Shown: piece by piece, positions 1 to 14,908 of the stretch
Layout: every line of letters begins with the position of its first letter
Numbering within the stretch: position 1 is the stretch's first letter
From: Nitrosarchaeum sp.
GTDB lineage: Archaea > Thermoproteota > Nitrososphaeria > Nitrososphaerales > Nitrosopumilaceae
DNA length: 64,000 nt
Assembly: GCA_021414365.1 (NCBI GenBank)
Contig: JAIOOR010000024.1
Coordinates: 1-64,000 of the forward strand
Reading direction: 5' to 3'
Translations under genes and position numbers: made by a program
The notes under the pieces: generated by a model
What the model saw: the letters and a program-made list of their open reading frames with translations, nothing else
The model's database searches: none
What the model was told of the DNA's origin: nothing

Positions 1-1328
1 ACTTCTGTTCCATCATACATTGTAGTTTGATATCCTGATTTTCCAAATGAGCCAACTGTGGTAAATACGGATGCTTGAACTACAATAGATTCCAAAATAT
101 TTTGACCTGCAATGGTTCCAGGTAAAATTTTCACCAAAAATTGTTCAGTTGAGTTTGGAGGGATAGTTATAGGATTTACAAAATCTTGCCACATGATGAC
201 GTTTTCAGAAGGACAAGTCCAGTGATTTGCACCTGTAGGAAAGATGTTATCGGCAACACAGTTAGCATCAAAAATTTTATCATTGTTATTAGCGCCTGGA
301 GCAAAAGCGGTAATCGAGAGTTTACTTACTTTCATAGGAGCATTTACAGGATTGGCTACATTTATGCCCCACAATGCTTTTGAGTTTGAGTCACCTTGGG
401 GAGATGGAATTGTGAGGAATAGTTTTGGTCTTGCAAGCAAATCTTCGTTAATTATGTTAGGATCAGATTGACCGTTTGTTCCATTGATATCAGTAGAACC
501 ATCTGTTGGTAATCGTAGTCTGCTTACATCAGAAACCGTGTTACTTATCACCACTGAAGAATCTTCATCAGTTCCACTTGCATAGCTAGAGAAACTAACA
601 TCATCATCACTATTGCCCGATATTGTATAATCCCATGAAAACATTACAGATGCACCAGGATTAAGATCAACTGAAGCAGGAGTTGATGAAGAGGATGCAA
701 GAACTGCCAAAGAAGGAATGACAATAGGAGGTTCAGGGGTAACATTATGAATGGTCGATAATCCAGTGTTTGTCACAACCATTGCAACAGTAACATTTTG
801 TCCAATTATTACATCTGGTGGATTAGCCATCATTTCAGATCTTAATCCACTAGAGGAGTTGGAACCAACAGTCATTTCAGTAATTTTCACAGTACCCAAT
901 GCAGAGATTACTTTGATATCATAAGTGTCAGGAGTCATGTGAAGAAGTTGGTTAGAAAGTACATTTGATTTGAATCTAGTTGGGACAAACGTATCATCAG
1001 GATGAATATCAAAAGGCGTTACAGGTTGAGTTGCAAGAGTTTTGTTAATTATCCAAACACGTAATATTTCAACTGGGTTTTGGCCATTATTGTCAACTAA
1101 GACATTTAAAATATTATTTGAATCAGTAAAAGCTGTTATTCCAAATTGCTCTTGTTGTTTTTTGAGTTCTAAATCAGATACAACTCTTTGAGTGTTCACA
1201 ATGTCTGTTTGAGAATCCAAAGCTAAACTCATTGAAGAAAAGCCAGCAATCATTAAGATTGTAAAAATCAACGCACCAACAATAGACGATATTCCACGCC
1301 TAGAAGAGGATTTATTTTTAAAAATCAT
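1..1328 (-). CDS. type IV pilin-like surface protein, partial (3' end outside window)
   Basis: The frame is open from an ATG to the window edge (at least 442 codons, no stop), so the C-terminus is missing. The N-terminus is a class III (type IV pilin) signal: basic residues KNKSSSRRG, then the hydrophobic stretch ISSIVGALIFTILMIAGF, with expected prepilin-peptidase cleavage after Gly12. The rest is a long Ser/Thr/Asn-rich extracellular region with beta-sandwich character and no cysteine cluster. The start overlaps the stop of the next pilin gene by 4 nt (ATGA), so the two are probably translationally coupled. It is the last visible gene of a four-gene minus-strand operon. Being much larger than the two minor pilins, it could be an adhesin-type pilin; that role is inferred. 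Confidence 0.8.
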   Translation of the reverse strand, partial: MIFKNKSSSRRGISSIVGALIFTILMIAGFSSMSLALDSQTDIVNTQRVVSDLELKKQQEQFGITAFTDSNNILNVLVDNNGQNPVEILRVWIINKTLATQPVTPFDIHPDDTFVPTRFKSNVLSNQLLHMTPDTYDIKVISALGTVKITEMTVGSNSSSGLRSEMMANPPDVIIGQNVTVAMVVTNTGLSTIHNVTPEPPIVIPSLAVLASSSSTPASVDLNPGASVMFSWDYTISGNSDDDVSFSSYASGTDEDSSVVISNTVSDVSRLRLPTDGSTDINGTNGQSDPNIINEDLLARPKLFLTIPSPQGDSNSKALWGINVANPVNAPMKVSKLSITAFAPGANNNDKIFDANCVADNIFPTGANHWTCPSENVIMWQDFVNPITIPPNSTEQFLVKILPGTIAGQNILESIVVQASVFTTVGSFGKSGYQTTMYDGTE

Positions 1329-2029
1329 TGTGCACTGCCGCTCTCAATTAAAAATTCCACTGGATTTATAGTTCCAATATTTAACATGACCTGAATGCCT
1401 TTATTTAATAAAATATCTTGATCATCAGGACCAAGTTTAATCAAAAGATTAACAGTATCACCGTTAGTGATTTCATTATCAGAAGACTGAATTATAGAAT
1501 ATTCCGGTATTATTGAAAACTTTCCATCGTGCGGATAGTTACCACCAGAAGACAAATCTTGGAGAGTATTCAAAGCAATACCAGATGTTTGAGAATCCCA
1601 TGTGTGTACAATCTTGTTTAGTTTAATATTATCTAAAAAGATAGAATGTATTCCATTATTTTTAATTTTGATCATAACAAATTCAGAACCTCCGTTTAAA
1701 GGAAGTTTATCTGAGAGTCCAACACCAGTGCAAGAAACACTACATAGTTGTTGGTCTCCAAATTTATTATCAAGATTTGTTACTTTAAGTAATGTGGAAG
1801 CGTCTCTTGTATCATATGCTATTAACTGAACGGATTTAGTTTCTGTGTTTAGCGATGACGCAGTAGATAAATTCCCAGAAATAAAGGAGTCATTTACAAA
1901 ATATGTCAAAGTACTTGCGCCAGCTACAGTTATTGCCATTAGCAACATAGTTGAAATTATATCTGTAATTCCTCTTTTCTTAGAAAGACAGTTTTTTTTC
2001 AATTGTAAATGATTAGGATTGGTTTTCAT
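1325..2029 (-). CDS. type IV pilin-like protein
   Basis: 234 aa. Residues 11-20 are basic (KKNCLSKKRG) and are followed by a 20-residue hydrophobic helix, ITDIISTMLLMAITVAGAST. This is a class III signal peptide with likely cleavage after Gly20. The mature part is predicted beta-rich, with one close cysteine pair (CSVSC, about residues 97-101) that could form a disulfide. It overlaps the larger pilin gene by 4 nt and lies 6 nt after the smaller one, so all belong to one operon. The fold and secretion route follow from the signal; the exact role (major or minor pilin, adhesin) cannot be read from sequence. Confidence 0.8.
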   Translation of the reverse strand: MKTNPNHLQLKKNCLSKKRGITDIISTMLLMAITVAGASTLTYFVNDSFISGNLSTASSLNTETKSVQLIAYDTRDASTLLKVTNLDNKFGDQQLCSVSCTGVGLSDKLPLNGGSEFVMIKIKNNGIHSIFLDNIKLNKIVHTWDSQTSGIALNTLQDLSSGGNYPHDGKFSIIPEYSIIQSSDNEITNGDTVNLLIKLGPDDQDILLNKGIQVMLNIGTINPVEFLIESGSAQ

Positions 2030-2035
2030 TTTGAA

Positions 2036-2545
2036 TCAAGTATTAAATGGAGCAGCGACAGTTGTGAAAAAATTGCCCTTAGATGTGGTTATAGAGATTT
2101 TATATTTTGAATCAAGGTATTGTGGTTCATTCCAAGTATGTGAACCAATATTTGCATTCAGAATTATAGGATCACTTGATTCTTTTATCTGAATAGTAGA
2201 ATTTATGCTTCCATTCCAATCAACTAAGATTTCTTGAGTATCGATTTGAACAACAGTTATGCTCTCAATTGTAGATTCAGTTGTTCCGATATTTGTAAGA
2301 TATAGAATAATTTGATCAGTTCCAGGCTCAAATCTTACATGCTCAAATATTAGATTTTCACGATATACCTCATTTTTTGTTTTGTCATGAAAAGACAGAT
2401 CATATGAGAAAGCATTGATTTGATTCATACCATTAAACAAAACTACAGAACCGATAGATGTAACAACGCCTAAAATCACAACACTGCCCATAACTTGACT
2501 TATCGCACGTCTTTTTTTTAAAGAATCAAATGGGGTACATTTCAT
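2036..2545 (-). CDS. type IV pilin-like protein (small)
   Basis: 169 aa. The N-terminus reads SLKKRRA then ISQVMGSVVILGVVTSIGSV, a class III signal with probable prepilin-peptidase cleavage after Ala14. The rest resembles the short beta-rich domain of archaeal pilins or archaellins. Its ATG overlaps the stop of the TackOD1 gene by 4 nt (ATGA) and the next pilin follows after 6 nt. Context (pilin operon divergent from a pilus ATPase and two TadC-type proteins) supports a structural pilus subunit. No prepilin peptidase is present in this window. Confidence 0.8.
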   Translation of the reverse strand: MKCTPFDSLKKRRAISQVMGSVVILGVVTSIGSVVLFNGMNQINAFSYDLSFHDKTKNEVYRENLIFEHVRFEPGTDQIILYLTNIGTTESTIESITVVQIDTQEILVDWNGSINSTIQIKESSDPIILNANIGSHTWNEPQYLDSKYKISITTSKGNFFTTVAAPFNT

Positions 2546-3681
2546 TTATGACCACCATTATGGGCATACCATGCAGAAACAAACTCTTCTACACGTGAAA
2601 TTATTTTTGAAAAATTAGGATCAGAAATTAAATTAATTTTATAATGTTTCGCAAGATTTTCCACATCTTCTTTGACATCAGATACTGTTACAAGCAATGT
2701 GCTTTTAGGATCAATATCTAACTTTGGGATTAAAATAGAATTCATATCTGATTCAGAAATTCCTGTAGATTGATTTTTGATAAAAATCAAAATAGAATCG
2801 TTATTGTATTTGTTTTTGCCAAAGATCGGAATTTCATGAACATTGCCGCTTTTTCCTTGTACAAGAAAATTAAGTTCTGCCGTAAAATTAAAACCATGTA
2901 ATAACTTGACTAACTCATCTCTTATTTGAGTAGAATCTGAAATATTTGACATGTCAGAATTTCTTAATTTATAACAAAACGTAGTTACAAATTTTCCTGA
3001 ATTTGTATCAAAATCATGATCATGTTTTCTACAATGAAGTTTTATTACAGCATTATCAAATTTTTCAGAACAATCTGCACATTGATACCACATTGCAGGA
3101 ACTCTAATTTCTTTGTCAAAATTTTTAATTTCTTTTTTACATGAAGGGCAAACAGATGGAGTAGAATTTGTGAAATCAAAATTTGTACTTTCAGCGATAT
3201 ATCCACATTTTTTATGTTCAAACAGATTTAATTTATCAACATTCATTGAATGGCATTTTGGGCAATACAATCTCATGCTGGATGAAAATACATCAGAATG
3301 AACTGGACAAACAATTAATTTCTCATAAATGTTCTTTGCCAAAATACCATCAGATACTAAACCATCCAAATAGGATACATTATCAGTTGGTTCTTCTATA
3401 TGCGATAAAATAGGATAAAAAATTCGGCCGTTAGTATAATCAATAAATGGCTTGATAGTATTATCTTCAAGTTTTTGTACTTGCTGAATCAAATTTACTG
3501 ATTTACTAGTAGAAGGAATGATTGAATCAGGCTCAGAATTTATCTTTTGAATTAATTTGGGGGAATTTTTTTTCGAGTCTGGCTCATTTTCCAAAACATG
3601 GATCATGTTCACCACATTAGGAATTGTCCCAGATTTTGATTTCAATTTTGAGAAAACATTTGATTTTCGACCAAACATCAA
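2542..3681 (-). CDS. TackOD1-type zinc protein with C-terminal nuclease-like fold
   Basis: 379 aa, first gene of the pilin operon. Residues 1-75 are low-complexity and polar. Residues about 105-225 hold paired metal ligands (Cys125/His128, Cys140/Cys143, His156/Cys159, Cys178/Cys181, Cys201/Cys204, Cys217/His220), the pattern of TackOD1, an output domain described from thaumarchaeal signalling proteins. The last ~110 residues contain GKSGNVHEIPIF and ILIFIKN, then alternating strands and helices, which recalls a restriction-endonuclease-like (Mrr) fold with a poor active site. No membrane segment is seen. It may be a cytosolic regulator or assembly factor for the pili. The domain names are from memory of motif spacing; the role is inferred. 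Confidence 0.65.
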   Translation of the reverse strand: MMFGRKSNVFSKLKSKSGTIPNVVNMIHVLENEPDSKKNSPKLIQKINSEPDSIIPSTSKSVNLIQQVQKLEDNTIKPFIDYTNGRIFYPILSHIEEPTDNVSYLDGLVSDGILAKNIYEKLIVCPVHSDVFSSSMRLYCPKCHSMNVDKLNLFEHKKCGYIAESTNFDFTNSTPSVCPSCKKEIKNFDKEIRVPAMWYQCADCSEKFDNAVIKLHCRKHDHDFDTNSGKFVTTFCYKLRNSDMSNISDSTQIRDELVKLLHGFNFTAELNFLVQGKSGNVHEIPIFGKNKYNNDSILIFIKNQSTGISESDMNSILIPKLDIDPKSTLLVTVSDVKEDVENLAKHYKINLISDPNFSKIISRVEEFVSAWYAHNGGHK

Positions 3682-3764
3682 GCATCAACCTCAAAAAATA
3701 AAACAGTAAATGTCATGTTTAGCATAAAGAGTCAAAACCAAAGTAAAAGCAAAATGTTGTTCAA

Positions 3765-5426
3765 ATGAACGAACAAGCGTTAAAACATAAAGTGTGCATA
3801 AAATACCTAAAAATGAGGCTGAACATATTTAAAGATAAGATCACAGTACTAAAAACAATTCACATAGACAAAAATATTTTAAAAACAAATAAAGATGTAC
3901 CAGATACAATATCAAAATTTAACGAAGAGAATGAAAATAGAATTCCACAATTTATGACATTATCAAAACTTGATTGGGATAACAATGAGATTCATGCAGG
4001 AATAATAAAAGATCAAACAGCCAAAGGAGGATTAAGATATCAAGTGATAGAACCAATATTGTCAGAAAGAGATCAGAAAGCTTTTGAAATTATTAAAAAG
4101 TTGTTAATGACTGAACTTTCAGTATCACTAGGTGAAATTAAATCTAAAAAAGACGCTGAAAAGAGATTAAAAACAAAAATATCTTCAATGATTAAAAAAT
4201 ACAGATTAAAAATTTCTCTAAAAAATATTGAAAAAATAAATTATTTTGCGGTAAGGGATTTCATTTATCTTGGAAAAATTGAACCATTAATGAGAGATCA
4301 TATGATTGAGGAAATTAGTTGTGATGGAACAAACATTCCAATTTATGTTTGGCATAGAGAACATGAATCAATTCCAACAAACATTATTTATGAAAAAGAA
4401 TCAGAACTGAATAATTTTGCAAGAAAAATGGCATACATGTGTGGAAAACATGTATCAATTGCAGATCCAATCATCGATGCATCGCTGCCTGATGGAAGTA
4501 GAATAAATCTAACACTAGGTCATGAAATAACGAAAAGAGGTAGTACGTTTACAATAAGACGTTTCAGGGCAGATCCGATTACCGTAATAGATCTAATCAA
4601 ATTCGGAACAATGTCAATAAATATAGCGGCGTACATGTGGTATCTTGCTGAAAAACGAGCTACAATGTTAATTGCTGGCGGTACAGCAAGTGGAAAAACT
4701 ACAGCTCTTAATGCATTGGCGACATTCATCAGACCTGGACAAAAAGTAGTCAGTATAGAGGATACACAGGAGCTAAATTTACCTCATGAAAATTGGATTC
4801 CAGCTGTTTCAAGACAGAGTTTCACAGATAAACAAATTGGAGAAATTAATCAGTTTGATCTGTTAAGAGCAGCTCTTAGACAAAGACCAGACATAATAAT
4901 TGTTGGTGAAACAAGAGGTAGAGAAGCATATACATTATTTCAAGCAATGGCTACTGGTCATGGAGGATATTCTTCAATACACGCAGATTCCGTAGAAGCA
5001 ACTCTAACTAGATTGACATCATCACCAATGGATGTTCCAAAAACTTTGATTTCAAATAGTCTTGATCTAATTACTTTGCAATTAAAAATTAGAATAGGAG
5101 AGAAATCAGCTAGAAGAATTATTCAGGTCTCAGAGATTAATGGAATTGATCAGAAAACAGGAGAAATAAAAACACATGAGATATTCAAATGGAATCCAAG
5201 AGAAGACAAACATGAATACATAGGAAATAGTGTTGTGTTTAATAAAATTAAAGAACGTGACGGTGATACAGATGATAAAATAAATTATGAATTAACAAAA
5301 CGACGAGTTGCATTAGAATGGATGGTAAGAAATGACATTCGTGATCACAAAGAAGTTTCCAATAACATAATGGAGTATTACTCAGATCCTGAAAGATACT
5401 ATGAGAGAAAAAGGATAGAAATGTAA
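3765..5426 (+). CDS. type IV pilus assembly / secretion ATPase (VirB11/TadA/ArlI family)
   Basis: 553 aa. The ATPase core has Walker A AGGTASGKTT at about residues 303-312, the Asp box region around IEDTQEL, Walker B DIIIVGETRG at about 375-384 and the His box region MATGHGGYSSIHADS. An N-terminal domain precedes the core, as in archaeal GspE/ArlI-type hexameric motors. It would power pilin extrusion at the inner face of the membrane. Two TadC-like membrane proteins follow at 1 nt and 5 nt, forming an operon divergent from the pilins. Another in-frame ATG at 3813 is a plausible alternative start. The C-terminal ~60 residues are charged and look specific to this lineage. Confidence 0.92.
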   Translation: MNEQALKHKVCIKYLKMRLNIFKDKITVLKTIHIDKNILKTNKDVPDTISKFNEENENRIPQFMTLSKLDWDNNEIHAGIIKDQTAKGGLRYQVIEPILSERDQKAFEIIKKLLMTELSVSLGEIKSKKDAEKRLKTKISSMIKKYRLKISLKNIEKINYFAVRDFIYLGKIEPLMRDHMIEEISCDGTNIPIYVWHREHESIPTNIIYEKESELNNFARKMAYMCGKHVSIADPIIDASLPDGSRINLTLGHEITKRGSTFTIRRFRADPITVIDLIKFGTMSINIAAYMWYLAEKRATMLIAGGTASGKTTALNALATFIRPGQKVVSIEDTQELNLPHENWIPAVSRQSFTDKQIGEINQFDLLRAALRQRPDIIIVGETRGREAYTLFQAMATGHGGYSSIHADSVEATLTRLTSSPMDVPKTLISNSLDLITLQLKIRIGEKSARRIIQVSEINGIDQKTGEIKTHEIFKWNPREDKHEYIGNSVVFNKIKERDGDTDDKINYELTKRRVALEWMVRNDIRDHKEVSNNIMEYYSDPERYYERKRIEM

Positions 5427-5427
5427 A

Positions 5428-6342
5428 ATGAAAACAATGCTAACAAAACAAAAACAAGAAGAATCAGTAGGAATTATTCATGTATATAGTTACAAATTAC
5501 TAAATGAGCACATAAAATTTCTTTATCCAAAATTAAGACCATTAGAAAAATCAATAAAACATGCAATGATGCCAATTCCTTTTGAAGTATATGTTTCAAG
5601 CATGGTTTTTTTCAGCATAATTGCAGGAATTTGTGGAGGCATAATGGGTATAATTGCCTCCCATTTTGTCAATATTCAGCCTGTAATAATTGGTTATTTA
5701 CTGCCACCTATTGCAGGAATGTCTTTGATGCTAATGACGTTTGGAATTCTTCAAGTAATTCCAATTGTTAGAGTGAAAAACAGATCAACTAAGCTTTTAG
5801 AAGAAATTCCTCACTTTATTGGATACATGTCAACATTAGCTACAAGTGGTTTATCTTTAGAAGAAATTTTCAAAGCAATAGCTAAAGAAGAAACGGATGA
5901 AGACATTGTAAAAGATGCACGATTCATCACAAGAAATATTGAGATTCTCGGAATGGATTTGATCACTGCAGTAAAAGATTTGATTAACAGAACGCCGCCA
6001 GGACCATACTCAGAATTACTAGAAGGTGCAATCATTACATCACAGTCAGGTGGAGATTTAAAAGAATACTTTAATGCAACAGCTAAAGTTCAACTTGAAG
6101 AAAAAAAAATGCTAATGCAAAAAACCACAGAATCATTGGGATCAGTTGCAGAAATATACACGATTCTTTTGATAGTTTTCCCATTACTTGCAGTAATCAT
6201 GTTATCAATTATGGGTATAATGAGTCCAAGTTTAGGAGGTTTTGATTTGTTAACATTGATGAACATTCTAACATTTGCAGTAATCCCACTTAGTGGAGTG
6301 TTGATGTTAGTTATGATGGATACTATGGTTCCAAAGAGGTAA
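5428..6342 (+). CDS. type II/IV secretion membrane platform protein (TadB/TadC, T2SSF-like)
   Basis: 304 aa. There are two hydrophobic helices at about residues 50-110, a cytoplasmic helical domain with the T2SSF-type pattern LLEEIPHFIGYMSTLATSGL, and two more helices near the C-terminus (TILLIVFPLLAVIMLSIMGI and the last ~35 residues). This is a single T2SSF unit, as in Tad systems, not the fused double-domain ArlJ. It would form the membrane platform on which the ATPase acts. It starts 1 nt after the ATPase stop and is followed 5 nt later by a second protein of the same length, suggesting a heteromeric platform. Confidence 0.88.
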   Translation: MKTMLTKQKQEESVGIIHVYSYKLLNEHIKFLYPKLRPLEKSIKHAMMPIPFEVYVSSMVFFSIIAGICGGIMGIIASHFVNIQPVIIGYLLPPIAGMSLMLMTFGILQVIPIVRVKNRSTKLLEEIPHFIGYMSTLATSGLSLEEIFKAIAKEETDEDIVKDARFITRNIEILGMDLITAVKDLINRTPPGPYSELLEGAIITSQSGGDLKEYFNATAKVQLEEKKMLMQKTTESLGSVAEIYTILLIVFPLLAVIMLSIMGIMSPSLGGFDLLTLMNILTFAVIPLSGVLMLVMMDTMVPKR

Positions 6343-6347
6343 AGAAG

Positions 6348-7262
6348 ATGCAAAAAGCGAGCAGACAGAAAAAGGAGATATTATCAACAGAGATAATGCC
6401 AAAAAAATCAATTTGGAAAAAAGAAATTACAAAAACAATCATGTTTTCAATTATTGCATCAATTAGTGTAATTCTAATTAGTTTAAAATTCTCTGACTTG
6501 TTAGGAACAACTACAGTAAGAGACGTTGGAATAATTTTTGGAATCATGGTAGGCATCATACCATTAACAATTCATCAATTAAGAGAAGTTCAAAGAAGAG
6601 ATAACATTGATAGAAACATGCCAGTATTTTTATTGGCATTATTGAGTTCAGTGCAAAGTGGTTCAAATCTTATCAAAGCAATAGAACAAGCCGCAGAAAG
6701 AAATCTTGGCGCATTAACTCCAGAATTAAAAAATCTAAAGGCAAATATCAGTTGGGGCACTCCTATTGAGGACGCATTTGAAAATTTTGCAAAGAGAACA
6801 GGCACAAGAGTTTCACGGCGTGTCACAGTGTTGTTAGAAATGGCTATGAAAATAGGAGGAGATGTCAGTGAAAATCTAGAGATGATTCAAAAACATGTTT
6901 CAGAGATGCAAAATATTGAGAAAAGCAGAAAGTCAGCTTTGCAGCCATACACTTACACAATTTACATTTCATTTGCAGTATTTTTGGCAGTTGCAGTATT
7001 ACTAACTACTAGTTTCTTTACAGAAATTGAAAAAGTTCAAGTGGGGTTATTGGCAGCAGGAAGCGGTAAAAACGGATTATTTGGATCACTTGCAGACATG
7101 GATGTATCAAAATTAGAATCATCATTATTTAACATGGCAATAATTGAGGCAGTCTTTGGAGGAGTTGCGGCTGGAAAAATCGGTTCCGGATCATATGTTG
7201 CAGGAACAAAACATGTTGTTGTGATGATCATTATGGCAGTAATTGCATTTAACGTGTCATAG
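6348..7262 (+). CDS. type II/IV secretion membrane platform protein (second TadC-like subunit)
   Basis: 304 aa. Membrane helices lie at about residues 27-70, then comes a T2SSF cytoplasmic domain (NMPVFLLALLSSVQSGSNLI, and EMAMKIGGDVSENLEMIQ), and two or three helices toward the C-terminus. It is only distantly similar to the preceding 304 aa protein, so the pair looks like TadB plus TadC. It ends 56 nt before the tiny ORF that leads into the TrmB gene. The family call is firm; which half of the platform it forms is not decided by sequence. Confidence 0.87.
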   Translation: MQKASRQKKEILSTEIMPKKSIWKKEITKTIMFSIIASISVILISLKFSDLLGTTTVRDVGIIFGIMVGIIPLTIHQLREVQRRDNIDRNMPVFLLALLSSVQSGSNLIKAIEQAAERNLGALTPELKNLKANISWGTPIEDAFENFAKRTGTRVSRRVTVLLEMAMKIGGDVSENLEMIQKHVSEMQNIEKSRKSALQPYTYTIYISFAVFLAVAVLLTTSFFTEIEKVQVGLLAAGSGKNGLFGSLADMDVSKLESSLFNMAIIEAVFGGVAAGKIGSGSYVAGTKHVVVMIIMAVIAFNVS

Positions 7263-7318
7263 ACATTCAAACATTGTTTGCATCGATTACAAAGTTTTAC
7301 AAATACAATTGAGGTAGG

Positions 7319-7450
7319 ATGGAAAAATTAAACAAAGATTCAAGTATGAATATGATAACATATGACAAACTAGTAAATTATGCGCAAATATTAAATGCAA
7401 TAAAACAAAATTTTTTCATTGAAGTCATTTCAGGGGTCAAAATAAAATGA
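7319..7450 (+). CDS. 43 aa small ORF translationally coupled to the TrmB gene
   Basis: Unrecognised. The ORF starts with ATG directly after a GAGGT Shine-Dalgarno-like element (7311-7315), encodes 43 residues beginning MEKLNKDSSMNMITYDKLVN, and its TGA overlaps the ATG of the TrmB regulator (ATGA). The good ribosome site plus coupling suggests a real leader peptide or small protein that sets translation of the regulator. The product is mixed polar and hydrophobic without cysteines or a clear membrane helix. Chance ORFs of this size are common, so confidence is moderate. Confidence 0.45.
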   Translation: MEKLNKDSSMNMITYDKLVNYAQILNAIKQNFFIEVISGVKIK

Positions 7451-8292
7451 TGTCATATCAAGATCAAATGAGAGGAATAGCATTAGATTTAGAAGAGATA
7501 TTGAATCTTGACGAATTGGAAGCCAAGGTCTATCTTAATTTGTTAAGAGTAGGGCCAATTACGGCAAGTGCACTTGCAAAAGAACTTGAAATAGATAGAG
7601 CACGAATGTATAGAACAGTAGACAGACTAGTAAGTAGAAATATTATTTCAATAACACTTTCTAGCCCCAAATTATGTATCGCCGTAGAACCACAGGATGC
7701 AATAAAAATTGCACTGAGAAAAAAAGAAGATGAGGTAAATAGAATAAAAAAAGATGGAGATGCAATAATTGAAAAAATTAACAATGAGATCACTACAAAG
7801 CAAGACAGAAACGCCCCAACATTCAGAGTAGTTCAAGGTAGAGGAAATATTTATGCAGACATTGCCCAATTAATTGAGAACTCAGTTGGAATTGTATACA
7901 TATCCACTACGCTTGAAGACATATCCAGAATGTATCATAGTGCAATACCGGAAAAGATAACAATCTCTGAAAAAAAAGGAGGTAAAGTAAGGCTTCTAGT
8001 GGAGATAGATGATCCTAAACTGATTTCATTTGTAAAGAGATTCAATGCGTCTGAAACAAAGATTTGCAAACTTCCATCAAAAGGAAGAATAGTAGTGCAA
8101 AAAGACAAACAAATGATAATGTCAGATTTAACAGCATCAAGTAAAGCATCTCCAAACTCAGAATCAGATTTTTCGTTGTGTACAAATTCATCAGAAATGG
8201 TAAGCAACATACACAGTCTTTGCAGTTTGTTATGGGAGACAGCTCAGCCACTAATGACTTTAGATGTAAAAAACTACATAGAAAAAAATTAA
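7447..8292 (+). CDS. TrmB-family transcriptional regulator
   Basis: 281 aa. The N-terminal winged helix-turn-helix covers about residues 15-70 (LRVGPITASALAKELEIDRA, then RTVDRLVSRNI), typical of TrmB. A charged helix at 80-115 is followed by a C-terminal effector-type domain. It has no close ligand-binding motif I can name. It closes the pilus operon, so pilus genes are candidate targets. A paralogue of identical length lies at 14063-14908 with the same HTH layout. The start is the first of two adjacent ATG codons, overlapping the stop of the 43 aa ORF. Confidence 0.88.
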   Translation: MMSYQDQMRGIALDLEEILNLDELEAKVYLNLLRVGPITASALAKELEIDRARMYRTVDRLVSRNIISITLSSPKLCIAVEPQDAIKIALRKKEDEVNRIKKDGDAIIEKINNEITTKQDRNAPTFRVVQGRGNIYADIAQLIENSVGIVYISTTLEDISRMYHSAIPEKITISEKKGGKVRLLVEIDDPKLISFVKRFNASETKICKLPSKGRIVVQKDKQMIMSDLTASSKASPNSESDFSLCTNSSEMVSNIHSLCSLLWETAQPLMTLDVKNYIEKN

Positions 8293-8298
8293 AACAAA

Positions 8299-8700
8299 TT
8301 AAACCAAAGATTCATCGCTTACTTCAATTGGTTTTCTTCCCATAAAACCTGAATCTTTCTCATGCCAGAATTTGATTTCAGTTTCACCATACTTCCAGCA
8401 AAGCCAGACTTCTTCATCGAATCTTTTGGATGGAAAATCAAGTAATCCCTGATCAATACTTTTCACCACAACACCTGTGTTTTCAAGAATTTCTACTGAT
8501 TCGTAAAACTTGGTTATTGCAGAATTAAGTTTTTGTTTTAATAAGACATATGATTCAAAAGAATTCGTTGTTTCAAGATTCATTTGGAGTTCTTGTTCAA
8601 TTTTTGAAACTTCGTTCTTTTTTGCCAAAGCAAATTCAAATTTTTTAATTATATCTGGTAATGCTTGATTTGCATCTTTTGTGGTAAAATATGAAAACAT
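8299..8700 (-). CDS. DUF2203 family protein
   Basis: 133 aa, matching the usual DUF2203 length. It begins with the family-like FSYFTTKDANQALPDIIKKF, has a central coiled helix region, and ends with the conserved block GLLDFPSKRFDEEVWLCWKY followed by FWHEKDSGFMGRKPI. The function of the family is not established. It is convergent with the TrmB gene (6 nt between stops) and divergent from the next pair of genes. Confidence 0.85.
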   Translation of the reverse strand: MFSYFTTKDANQALPDIIKKFEFALAKKNEVSKIEQELQMNLETTNSFESYVLLKQKLNSAITKFYESVEILENTGVVVKSIDQGLLDFPSKRFDEEVWLCWKYGETEIKFWHEKDSGFMGRKPIEVSDESLV

Positions 8701-14062: not shown

Positions 14063-14908
14063 TTGGCAACTACAAATGTTGAGCATTATAGAGAAGAGAT
14101 TGATGTAACACCATCCATAGAATACATAAACGAGGTGGGTCGCGAGTTCACAAATGCACTTGGAATGAATGATGTGGAAGGAAGAGCATACATGTCATTA
14201 CTAAGAACTGGACCAATTACGGCAAGCTCACTTGCAAAAGATTTGAACATAGACAGAGCCAAAGCATACAGAATGGTTGAAAAATTATCTGCAGATGGCT
14301 TTATTTCAATGTCATTTTCAAGTCCAAAAAAATGCATTCCAATAGATCCTGAAAATGCGTATGCTGCATGTCTTGAAAGAAAAGAACACGAACTGAAAAA
14401 TTTTAAAGAAATGGGGAAAAAGATAATTCCTAGAGTCAAAGGAGTGGTATGTGCACGATTTGGTTCAAACACGCCATCATTTAGAATATTACACGGAACT
14501 GAAAAAATTTATTCTGCAATTGAAAATTTACTAGAAGATGATTCGAAATTAGTATACATGGTAACTACATCAGATGATGTAGCAAAGATGTATCATTCTG
14601 GAATTCCAGAAAAAATTAAAAAATTAGAAGAGAATGGAGGTAAAGTACGATTAATTATAGATATAGAAGATAGAAAGATGCTTCCATTTTTAAAAAGACT
14701 AAACGCAACAGAGATTCGATTAGGGGCCCTTCCATCAAGTGGAAGGATGATTATTTCAGAAAACAGTTTGGTAATGTCAAACATTAACAAGATGAACGAA
14801 GATCCTACAAAAGATTATGCATTATCAACCAATGCTTCAGAGATGATAAACTCTATCTTTAGTTTGTGCAGTTTACTTTGGAAAAACTCTAAAGACGTTG
14901 ACGTTTAA
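14063..14908 (+). CDS. TrmB-family transcriptional regulator (paralogue)
   Basis: 281 aa, same length and layout as the regulator at 7447-8292. The HTH reads LRTGPITASSLAKDLNIDRA then RMVEKLSADGFIS. A charged linker and the C-terminal domain with SGIPEKIKKLEENGGKVRL and ALSTNASEMINSIFSLCSLL are shared in pattern with the paralogue. It uses a TTG start, supported by the TATA box at 14036. It is monocistronic. Its targets are unknown; the MFS gene 209 nt downstream is one candidate. The pair indicates an old duplication within this lineage. Confidence 0.88.
   Translation: MATTNVEHYREEIDVTPSIEYINEVGREFTNALGMNDVEGRAYMSLLRTGPITASSLAKDLNIDRAKAYRMVEKLSADGFISMSFSSPKKCIPIDPENAYAACLERKEHELKNFKEMGKKIIPRVKGVVCARFGSNTPSFRILHGTEKIYSAIENLLEDDSKLVYMVTTSDDVAKMYHSGIPEKIKKLEENGGKVRLIIDIEDRKMLPFLKRLNATEIRLGALPSSGRMIISENSLVMSNINKMNEDPTKDYALSTNASEMINSIFSLCSLLWKNSKDVDV

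Follow-up and report, generated by a model that had tools for sequence, protein, structure and literature searches.

A TackOD1 zinc domain joined to a predicted nuclease fold without a catalytic triad in an archaeal type IV pilus locus

What does a protein that joins a zinc-ligand domain to a nuclease-like domain do at the head of a pilin operon? The gene in question lies in the window, the whole stretch of 64,000 nucleotides analysed here (contig C24, positions 1-64000, with position 1 at the contig start). A first-pass annotation had read its product as TackOD1 joined to an Mrr-like fold and had suggested a sensor or assembly role instead of DNA cleavage. We found that the gene was indeed the first of a pilin operon, as had been proposed, and overlapped the next, pilin-like ORF by four bases, an arrangement that would couple the translation of the two. 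Its frame opened with TTG, and the ATG at codon 2 is an alternative start. The pilus ATPase, two platform proteins and a TrmB-family regulator formed a divergent operon (Table 1), and the intergenic region would be longer if the ATPase started at a later ATG that is common in orthologs. The ATPase also matched a FlaI-like family, at a score below that family's cut-off. Pilin-like protein 1 had no Pfam match, and pilin-like protein 2 scored 21.3 bits with TIGR02537, whose cut-off is 20, and matched Pilin_N weakly in Pfam. A second TrmB-like regulator gene, resembling the first by eye, was seen at 14063-14908.

Table 1. Features of the pilus locus at the start of the window.
Feature	Coordinates	Strand	Basis
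Third pilin-like/adhesin-like protein, larger, cut by contig start	1..1328	-	Open frame conserved in neighbours
Pilin-like protein 2, archaellin/type IV pilin N-terminal domain	1325..2029	-	TIGR02537 E=1.4e-4
Pilin-like protein 1, conserved next gene	2036..2545	-	Hydrophobic stretch near N-terminus
Four-base overlap, TackOD1 gene end / first pilin gene start	2542..2545	-	ORF coordinates
TackOD1 + predicted inactive PD-(D/E)xK-fold protein	2542..3681	-	379 aa ORF, Pfam, ligands, model
Predicted PD-(D/E)xK-fold domain, residues 247-374, catalytic positions P285, F300, K302	2560..2943	-	Predicted fold; residue alignment
TackOD1 domain, residues 57-240, twelve zinc-ligand residues	2962..3513	-	Pfam, ligands, model
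N-terminal 56 residues, linker	3514..3681	-	Poor conservation; pLDDT <50 for residues 1-56
Intergenic region between divergent operons	3682..3764	.	ORF coordinates
Pilus assembly/secretion ATPase (T2SSE)	3765..5426	+	PF00437 E=1.9e-41
Platform protein (T2SSF) 1	5428..6342	+	PF00482 E=6.6e-15
Platform protein (T2SSF) 2	6348..7262	+	PF00482 E=2.9e-16
TrmB-family regulator, accompanies locus in most relatives	7447..8292	+	PF01978 E=7.2e-14

Two papers, of 2016 and 2018 (PMC4858521, PMC5847659), described TackOD1 proteins from type IV pilus loci of thaumarchaea. The pilus linkage in Thaumarchaea is already known, and the premise that all discussion of the domain had so far concerned an output role in signalling had to be given up. 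PMC5847659 assigns such proteins to arCOG06883, terms the function of TackOD1 obscure, and names the architectures REC-TackOD1 and REC-wHTH-TackOD1. Among the papers listed by a literature search, the names arCOG06883, TackOD1 and PF18551 occurred only in these two. The window gene likewise lay within a type IV pilus locus, and its product shared both the zinc domain and the kind of locus with the proteins described in the portions seen. Those portions do not mention the nuclease-fold domain, which could be mentioned elsewhere in the two papers, and do not state the co-inheritance with the pilus ATPase, the linkage in Bathyarchaeia, or the bacterial glycosyltransferase operons described below.

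The presence of TackOD1 with twelve paired ligands was confirmed. PF18551 matched residues 59-228 of the window protein (E=3.5e-22, 79.3 bits against a cut-off of 32), and the ligands, C125, H128, C140, C143, H156, C159, C178, C181, C201, C204, C217, and H222, were all twelve invariant in an alignment of 35 orthologs (the window and 34 loci; L065, with a split frame, was omitted). These residues, which would hold the zinc, were Cys/His pairs, two of the Cys pairs taking the form C125xxH128 and C217...H222 in the window family; the pattern given in PMC5847659 is five CxxC and one HxxC. Modelled alone, the domain reached a pLDDT of 92.3. No solved structure was a convincing relative of that model (Foldseek best E=0.071, best Z 6.3), which does not show that the predicted fold is new, and the sequence matches of the domain were common zinc fingers. 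Pfam found no receiver domain in the window protein, which did not have the make-up of a response regulator.

The C-terminal domain was examined in an AlphaFold2 model built on the 35-ortholog alignment (mean pLDDT 78, pTM 0.43). It was separate from TackOD1, and its predicted element order over residues 247-374 was a-b-b-b-a-b-a-b-a, which contains the PD-(D/E)xK core a-b-b-b-a-b. When compared with the PDB by Foldseek, AF1548 (1y88) ranked first (E=9.5e-6) and VC1899 (1xmx) second, with Cdn1/Can2 and type II enzymes below. VIA-align gave a Z of 12.9 to 1y88 (rmsd 3.9, 116 residues, 17% identity), 12.3 to Can2, 12.2 to VC1899, and 10.4 to both NucS (2vld) and Bax1. AF1548 is itself a protein of unknown function, and its match covered residues 3-125 only and was a likeness of fold alone. 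A sequence search of the PDB returned chance matches only (best E=0.047). Among 18 C-domain members, the weak Pfam matches, one member each, were Hjc (0.0082), NA-iREase1 (0.057), Mrr_cat (0.1), and NucS_C (0.1), and the lowest E was that of an unrelated family, GxGYxYP_N_3rd (0.00072, four members); Mrr_cat (PF04471) did not match the window protein. Since the sequence matches were weak or due to chance, the nuclease-fold call rests on predicted structure and element order, and on the model the assignment to the PD-(D/E)xK fold holds. The two parts of the first-pass reading were thus both recovered, and a failure to match TackOD1 or a PD-(D/E)xK fold, which had been looked for, did not occur.

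We then considered how tightly the gene is tied to the pilus. Pilin 1 lay downstream on the same strand in 35/35 loci of the window family; the spacing was -44 to +22 in 34 of them and 381 in L065, whose frame is split. The ATPase was present in 33 of the 35 loci, divergent in 32 and co-linear in one (L053); the two loci without a visible ATPase, L057 and L065, are short contigs. The TackOD1 gene followed ATPase-platform-platform directly and on the same strand in L053 and in L143, L259, L261, L262, and L263 (L143 and L263 being one locus), which belong, L053 aside, to deeper Thaumarchaeota and another archaeon and in which the pilin came next except in L259. The simplest history would be a single ancestral operon, later split by inversion in most of the window family. 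The fixed gene order could reflect co-expression only.

Across the phylum, the C-domain profile matched 190 of 398 genomes and TackOD1 196 of 300, the two matches being adjacent in proteins of about 330 aa. T2SSE or T2SSF was found near 22 of the 38 phylum-wide loci chosen by C-domain or TackOD1 score; neither was nearby in the other 16, some of which end at a contig edge, which indicates that the TackOD1/C-domain family is not confined to pili. Scanning named genomes yielded 72 loci, mostly from Bathyarchaeota, plus Nitrosocaldus and others, a taxon count biased by the 13 seed sequences, mostly of Bathyarchaeota type. T2SSE was present in 37 of the 40 named loci flanked by 5 kb or more on each side, a set that overlaps the 38 above, and most of the 37 were in Bathyarchaeia; it was absent from L246, L248, and L257. 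The nearest pilus gene was downstream on the opposite strand in 50 of the 55 linked named loci, the gene being convergent with the ATPase operon in many Bathyarchaeia. Several distant relatives had other features. TackOD1 proteins with three or four predicted transmembrane segments were encoded in L159, L164, L165, and L168, and one with a single segment in L160; those of L159, L164, and L168 were longer, with the membrane segments in front, and L164 and L168 had pilin-like neighbours. A prepilin peptidase (Peptidase_A24) gene (L156:5961-6761) adjoined the TackOD1 gene of one of the 16 loci, in which no pilus ATPase was seen, and a KaiC-family ATPase gene (L152:5647-6387) lay directly upstream of another TackOD1 gene that had no pilus ATPase nearby.

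Regulator-type TackOD1 genes served as a control. T2SSE or T2SSF was near none of 14 such loci, so that the idea of these genes, too, lying beside pilus genes was not borne out. The REC-TackOD1 regulator of the same genome (contig C22 of G000; L002, L189) adjoins a protein with a thioredoxin fold and a pair of large, conserved genes that recurred in 8 of the 14 loci. Such regulators share TackOD1 with the window protein; they differ in having a receiver in front, in ending after TackOD1 without a nuclease-fold domain, and in lying outside pilus loci. In a tree of 65 TackOD1 domains the regulator forms made one group (100/100), and a 98/98 branch set them apart from 39 rows that include the window family and the named pilus-linked rows. 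The split was imperfect, with a few distant rows that have pilus neighbours (e.g. L164, L167) on the regulator side. Other Thaumarchaeota were the neighbours of the window family in the tree, the placement expected under vertical descent.

Could the protein instead be a nucleic-acid-binding autoregulator that sets pilin expression, its zinc ribbons and dead nuclease fold contacting either the divergent promoter or the mRNA of the pilin? Zinc ribbons and dead nuclease folds are frequently nucleic-acid binders, the gene heads its operon at a divergent intergenic region, and REC-TackOD1 regulators are known, one of them in this very genome. However, neither domain had an excess of basic residues (K+R versus D+E was 14 versus 17 in the C-domain and 23 versus 24 in TackOD1), some relatives are the membrane-anchored forms described above (L159, L164, L165, L168, L160), and in many Bathyarchaeia the gene, being convergent with the ATPase operon, does not lie at the promoter of that operon. 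The locus also already has its TrmB regulator, and we consider autoregulation unlikely.

Co-inheritance with the pilus was measured in 151 family genomes. The long protein was found in 47 of them and the orthologous ATPase (E<=1e-200) in 52, and all 47 had both. TackOD1 matches including regulator-type ones occurred in 77 genomes, of which only those with the long protein were counted; scores of at least 699 bits, against at most 454 for paralogs and fragments, set the orthologous ATPase apart. Five genomes had the ATPase without the TackOD1 protein: G075, G031, and G060, where the locus ends at a contig edge, G020, and G116. In G116 (L068) the ATPase, platform, and pilin genes were kept, with a short gap at the place of the TackOD1 gene. 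This otherwise intact-looking locus led us to abandon the view that the pilus cannot do without the protein. The TackOD1 protein was thus not present wherever the locus is, as a core component would be, and the G116 locus suggests that it is probably accessory. That it is an indispensable structural element of the pilus base and takes no part in signalling would suit the near-strict co-occurrence with the ATPase, but is quite improbable given G116 and the fusion of TackOD1 elsewhere to REC or GGDEF.

TackOD1 genes were also found outside pilus loci. In two archaeal families (L160:6531-8090, L165:6512-8005) the TackOD1 protein had N-terminal membrane segments, and a GT2 gene followed 33 and 39 bases on. 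The TackOD1 domain of L145 matched 21 plasmid records and the Aminobacter protein 20. Eleven bacterial plasmid loci were examined (L265, L266, L268-L271, L273-L277), from Aminobacter, Roseibium, Methylocystis, Alisedimentitalea, Plesiomonas, Photobacterium, Phyllobacterium (two), Palleronia, Aeromonas, and Rhodobacteraceae M382; the set left out the second records from Aminobacter, Methylocystis, and Aeromonas as well as one of those from Phyllobacterium. A GT2/glycosyltransferase gene lay within two genes after TackOD1 in all 11, adjacent in ten and separated from it by one small gene in Alisedimentitalea; those of Photobacterium and Aeromonas were identified by eye in unannotated frames. An HlyD-family gene came right after the glycosyltransferase in seven (six annotated, Photobacterium by eye) and behind TolC in Aeromonas, and the gene following the glycosyltransferase was annotated as hypothetical in Roseibium, Methylocystis, and Palleronia. 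In these plasmid loci TackOD1 forms a tight operon with a GT2-type gene and often an HlyD adaptor gene. Pfam showed a REC-TackOD1 fusion in Roseibium and a TackOD1-GGDEF fusion in Plesiomonas, and PilZ was absent from the families listed for the window protein and for the bacterial TackOD1 proteins scanned. The C-domain profile matched none of five bacterial TackOD1 proteins and, weakly (13.5 bits), one of two from haloarchaeal plasmids; the three haloarchaeal plasmid loci (L267, L272, L278) had neither pilus nor GT2 neighbours.

These operons bear on the reading that the pilus handles DNA, in uptake or exchange, and that the nuclease-fold domain steers the DNA but leaves it uncut. The fold relatives are DNA or RNA nucleases (NucS, Bax1, Can2), and PMC11868833 reports that Sulfolobales pili participate in DNA exchange. 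We regard this as very unlikely, as Pfam found no DNA channel, helicase, or single-strand-binding gene among the eight proteins around 1325-8700, and the five bacterial TackOD1 proteins tested lie beside polysaccharide-type genes and have no nuclease-fold domain.

The catalytic residues of the PD-(D/E)xK fold were then inspected. The window protein has P285 in place of D and F300 in place of E, and retains K302, so that the pattern D...(D/E/Q)xK is missing. The annotation had called these residues weak: a lysine is kept, and at two of the three positions they are absent, not merely weak. In 27 family sequences (26 loci and the window, after eight near-copies and L065 were dropped), position 285 was D in 11 and P in 13, and position 300 was F, L, or M in all 27. 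The triad was found in none of 44 wider sequences (the window, six family and 37 distant ones), 17 of which have D285 with D/E/Q300, and in none of the 72 named loci, of which 58 combine D285 with D/E300 and 54 have Ala at position 302. The acid pair and the lysine occurred together in no sequence, and the second acid was lost throughout the window family. The most conserved features of the domain were a GxSGxxH loop and D322. Judged from sequence, DNA cleavage would not be expected of the window protein, in agreement with the first-pass annotation; the acid pair in 58 of the 72 named relatives makes it conceivable that these bind metal, or catalyse in an unusual way by means of a lysine at another position. 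An active nuclease with such a lysine, for example K277 in the conserved GKSG loop (K in 60/73 rows), is highly improbable despite that acid pair, given the loss of the second acid in the window family, its D285 in 11 of 27 only, and a K277 that is not invariant.

On balance, we consider it reasonably probable that the window protein is an accessory, non-catalytic cytoplasmic control or adaptor subunit of one archaeal type IV pilus machine. The pilus linkage, the co-inheritance, the regulator control, the missing triad, and the well-supported branch of the tree argue for a pilus subunit; the wider loci without T2SSE or T2SSF, the G116 locus, and the acid pair of the named relatives argue against it. 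The protein would be made together with the first pilin from overlapping genes and would be located on the cytoplasmic side of the ATPase and platform, where it would tune pilus assembly upon a signal. Its zinc-rich TackOD1 part may act as a rigid adaptor, and its nuclease-fold part, having lost cutting, is probably a domain that binds a ligand or a partner. We infer this platform-tuning adaptor from the linkage, the gene overlap, the loss of catalysis, the absence from G116, and the partners of TackOD1 elsewhere. The sensor or assembly role first suggested would fit both the linkage and the missing catalytic residues.

Much more tentatively, TackOD1 may be a zinc-built control module for membrane machines that make surface structures in archaea and bacteria. 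In Thaumarchaeota and Bathyarchaeia the machine would be the pilus platform; in Pseudomonadota and a few archaea it would be an exopolysaccharide-type synthase of the GT2/HlyD kind. Its signals would come from receivers, GGDEF-like domains, or a dead nuclease fold. PilZ domains are used in pilus systems, in GT2/HlyD polysaccharide synthases, and in fusions to receivers. TackOD1 would be used in a similar pattern, with a zinc fold instead and perhaps another signal; the likeness is one of use, and no kinship is claimed. If so, there would be a reason for ammonia-oxidising archaea to keep REC-TackOD1 regulators beside the pilus form. Through the linkage, TackOD1 gains two concrete types of partner, the ATPase/platform of the pilus and the GT2 synthase. 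Because the bacterial operons occur in culturable organisms, direct tests of its role become feasible for a domain that is known chiefly from archaea not in culture.

The pilus-linked case also adds to the dead nuclease folds that serve purposes besides cutting. NA-iREase (NACHT-associated inactive restriction endonuclease, PF22722) is likewise a dead nuclease fold used as a non-catalytic module; its weak match to one C-domain member (E=0.057) was not significant, and its NACHT partner is absent at the pilus loci. One ortholog of the window protein (L058:467-2023) carries a long KLEEERRKAE-type repeat tail behind its nuclease-fold domain.
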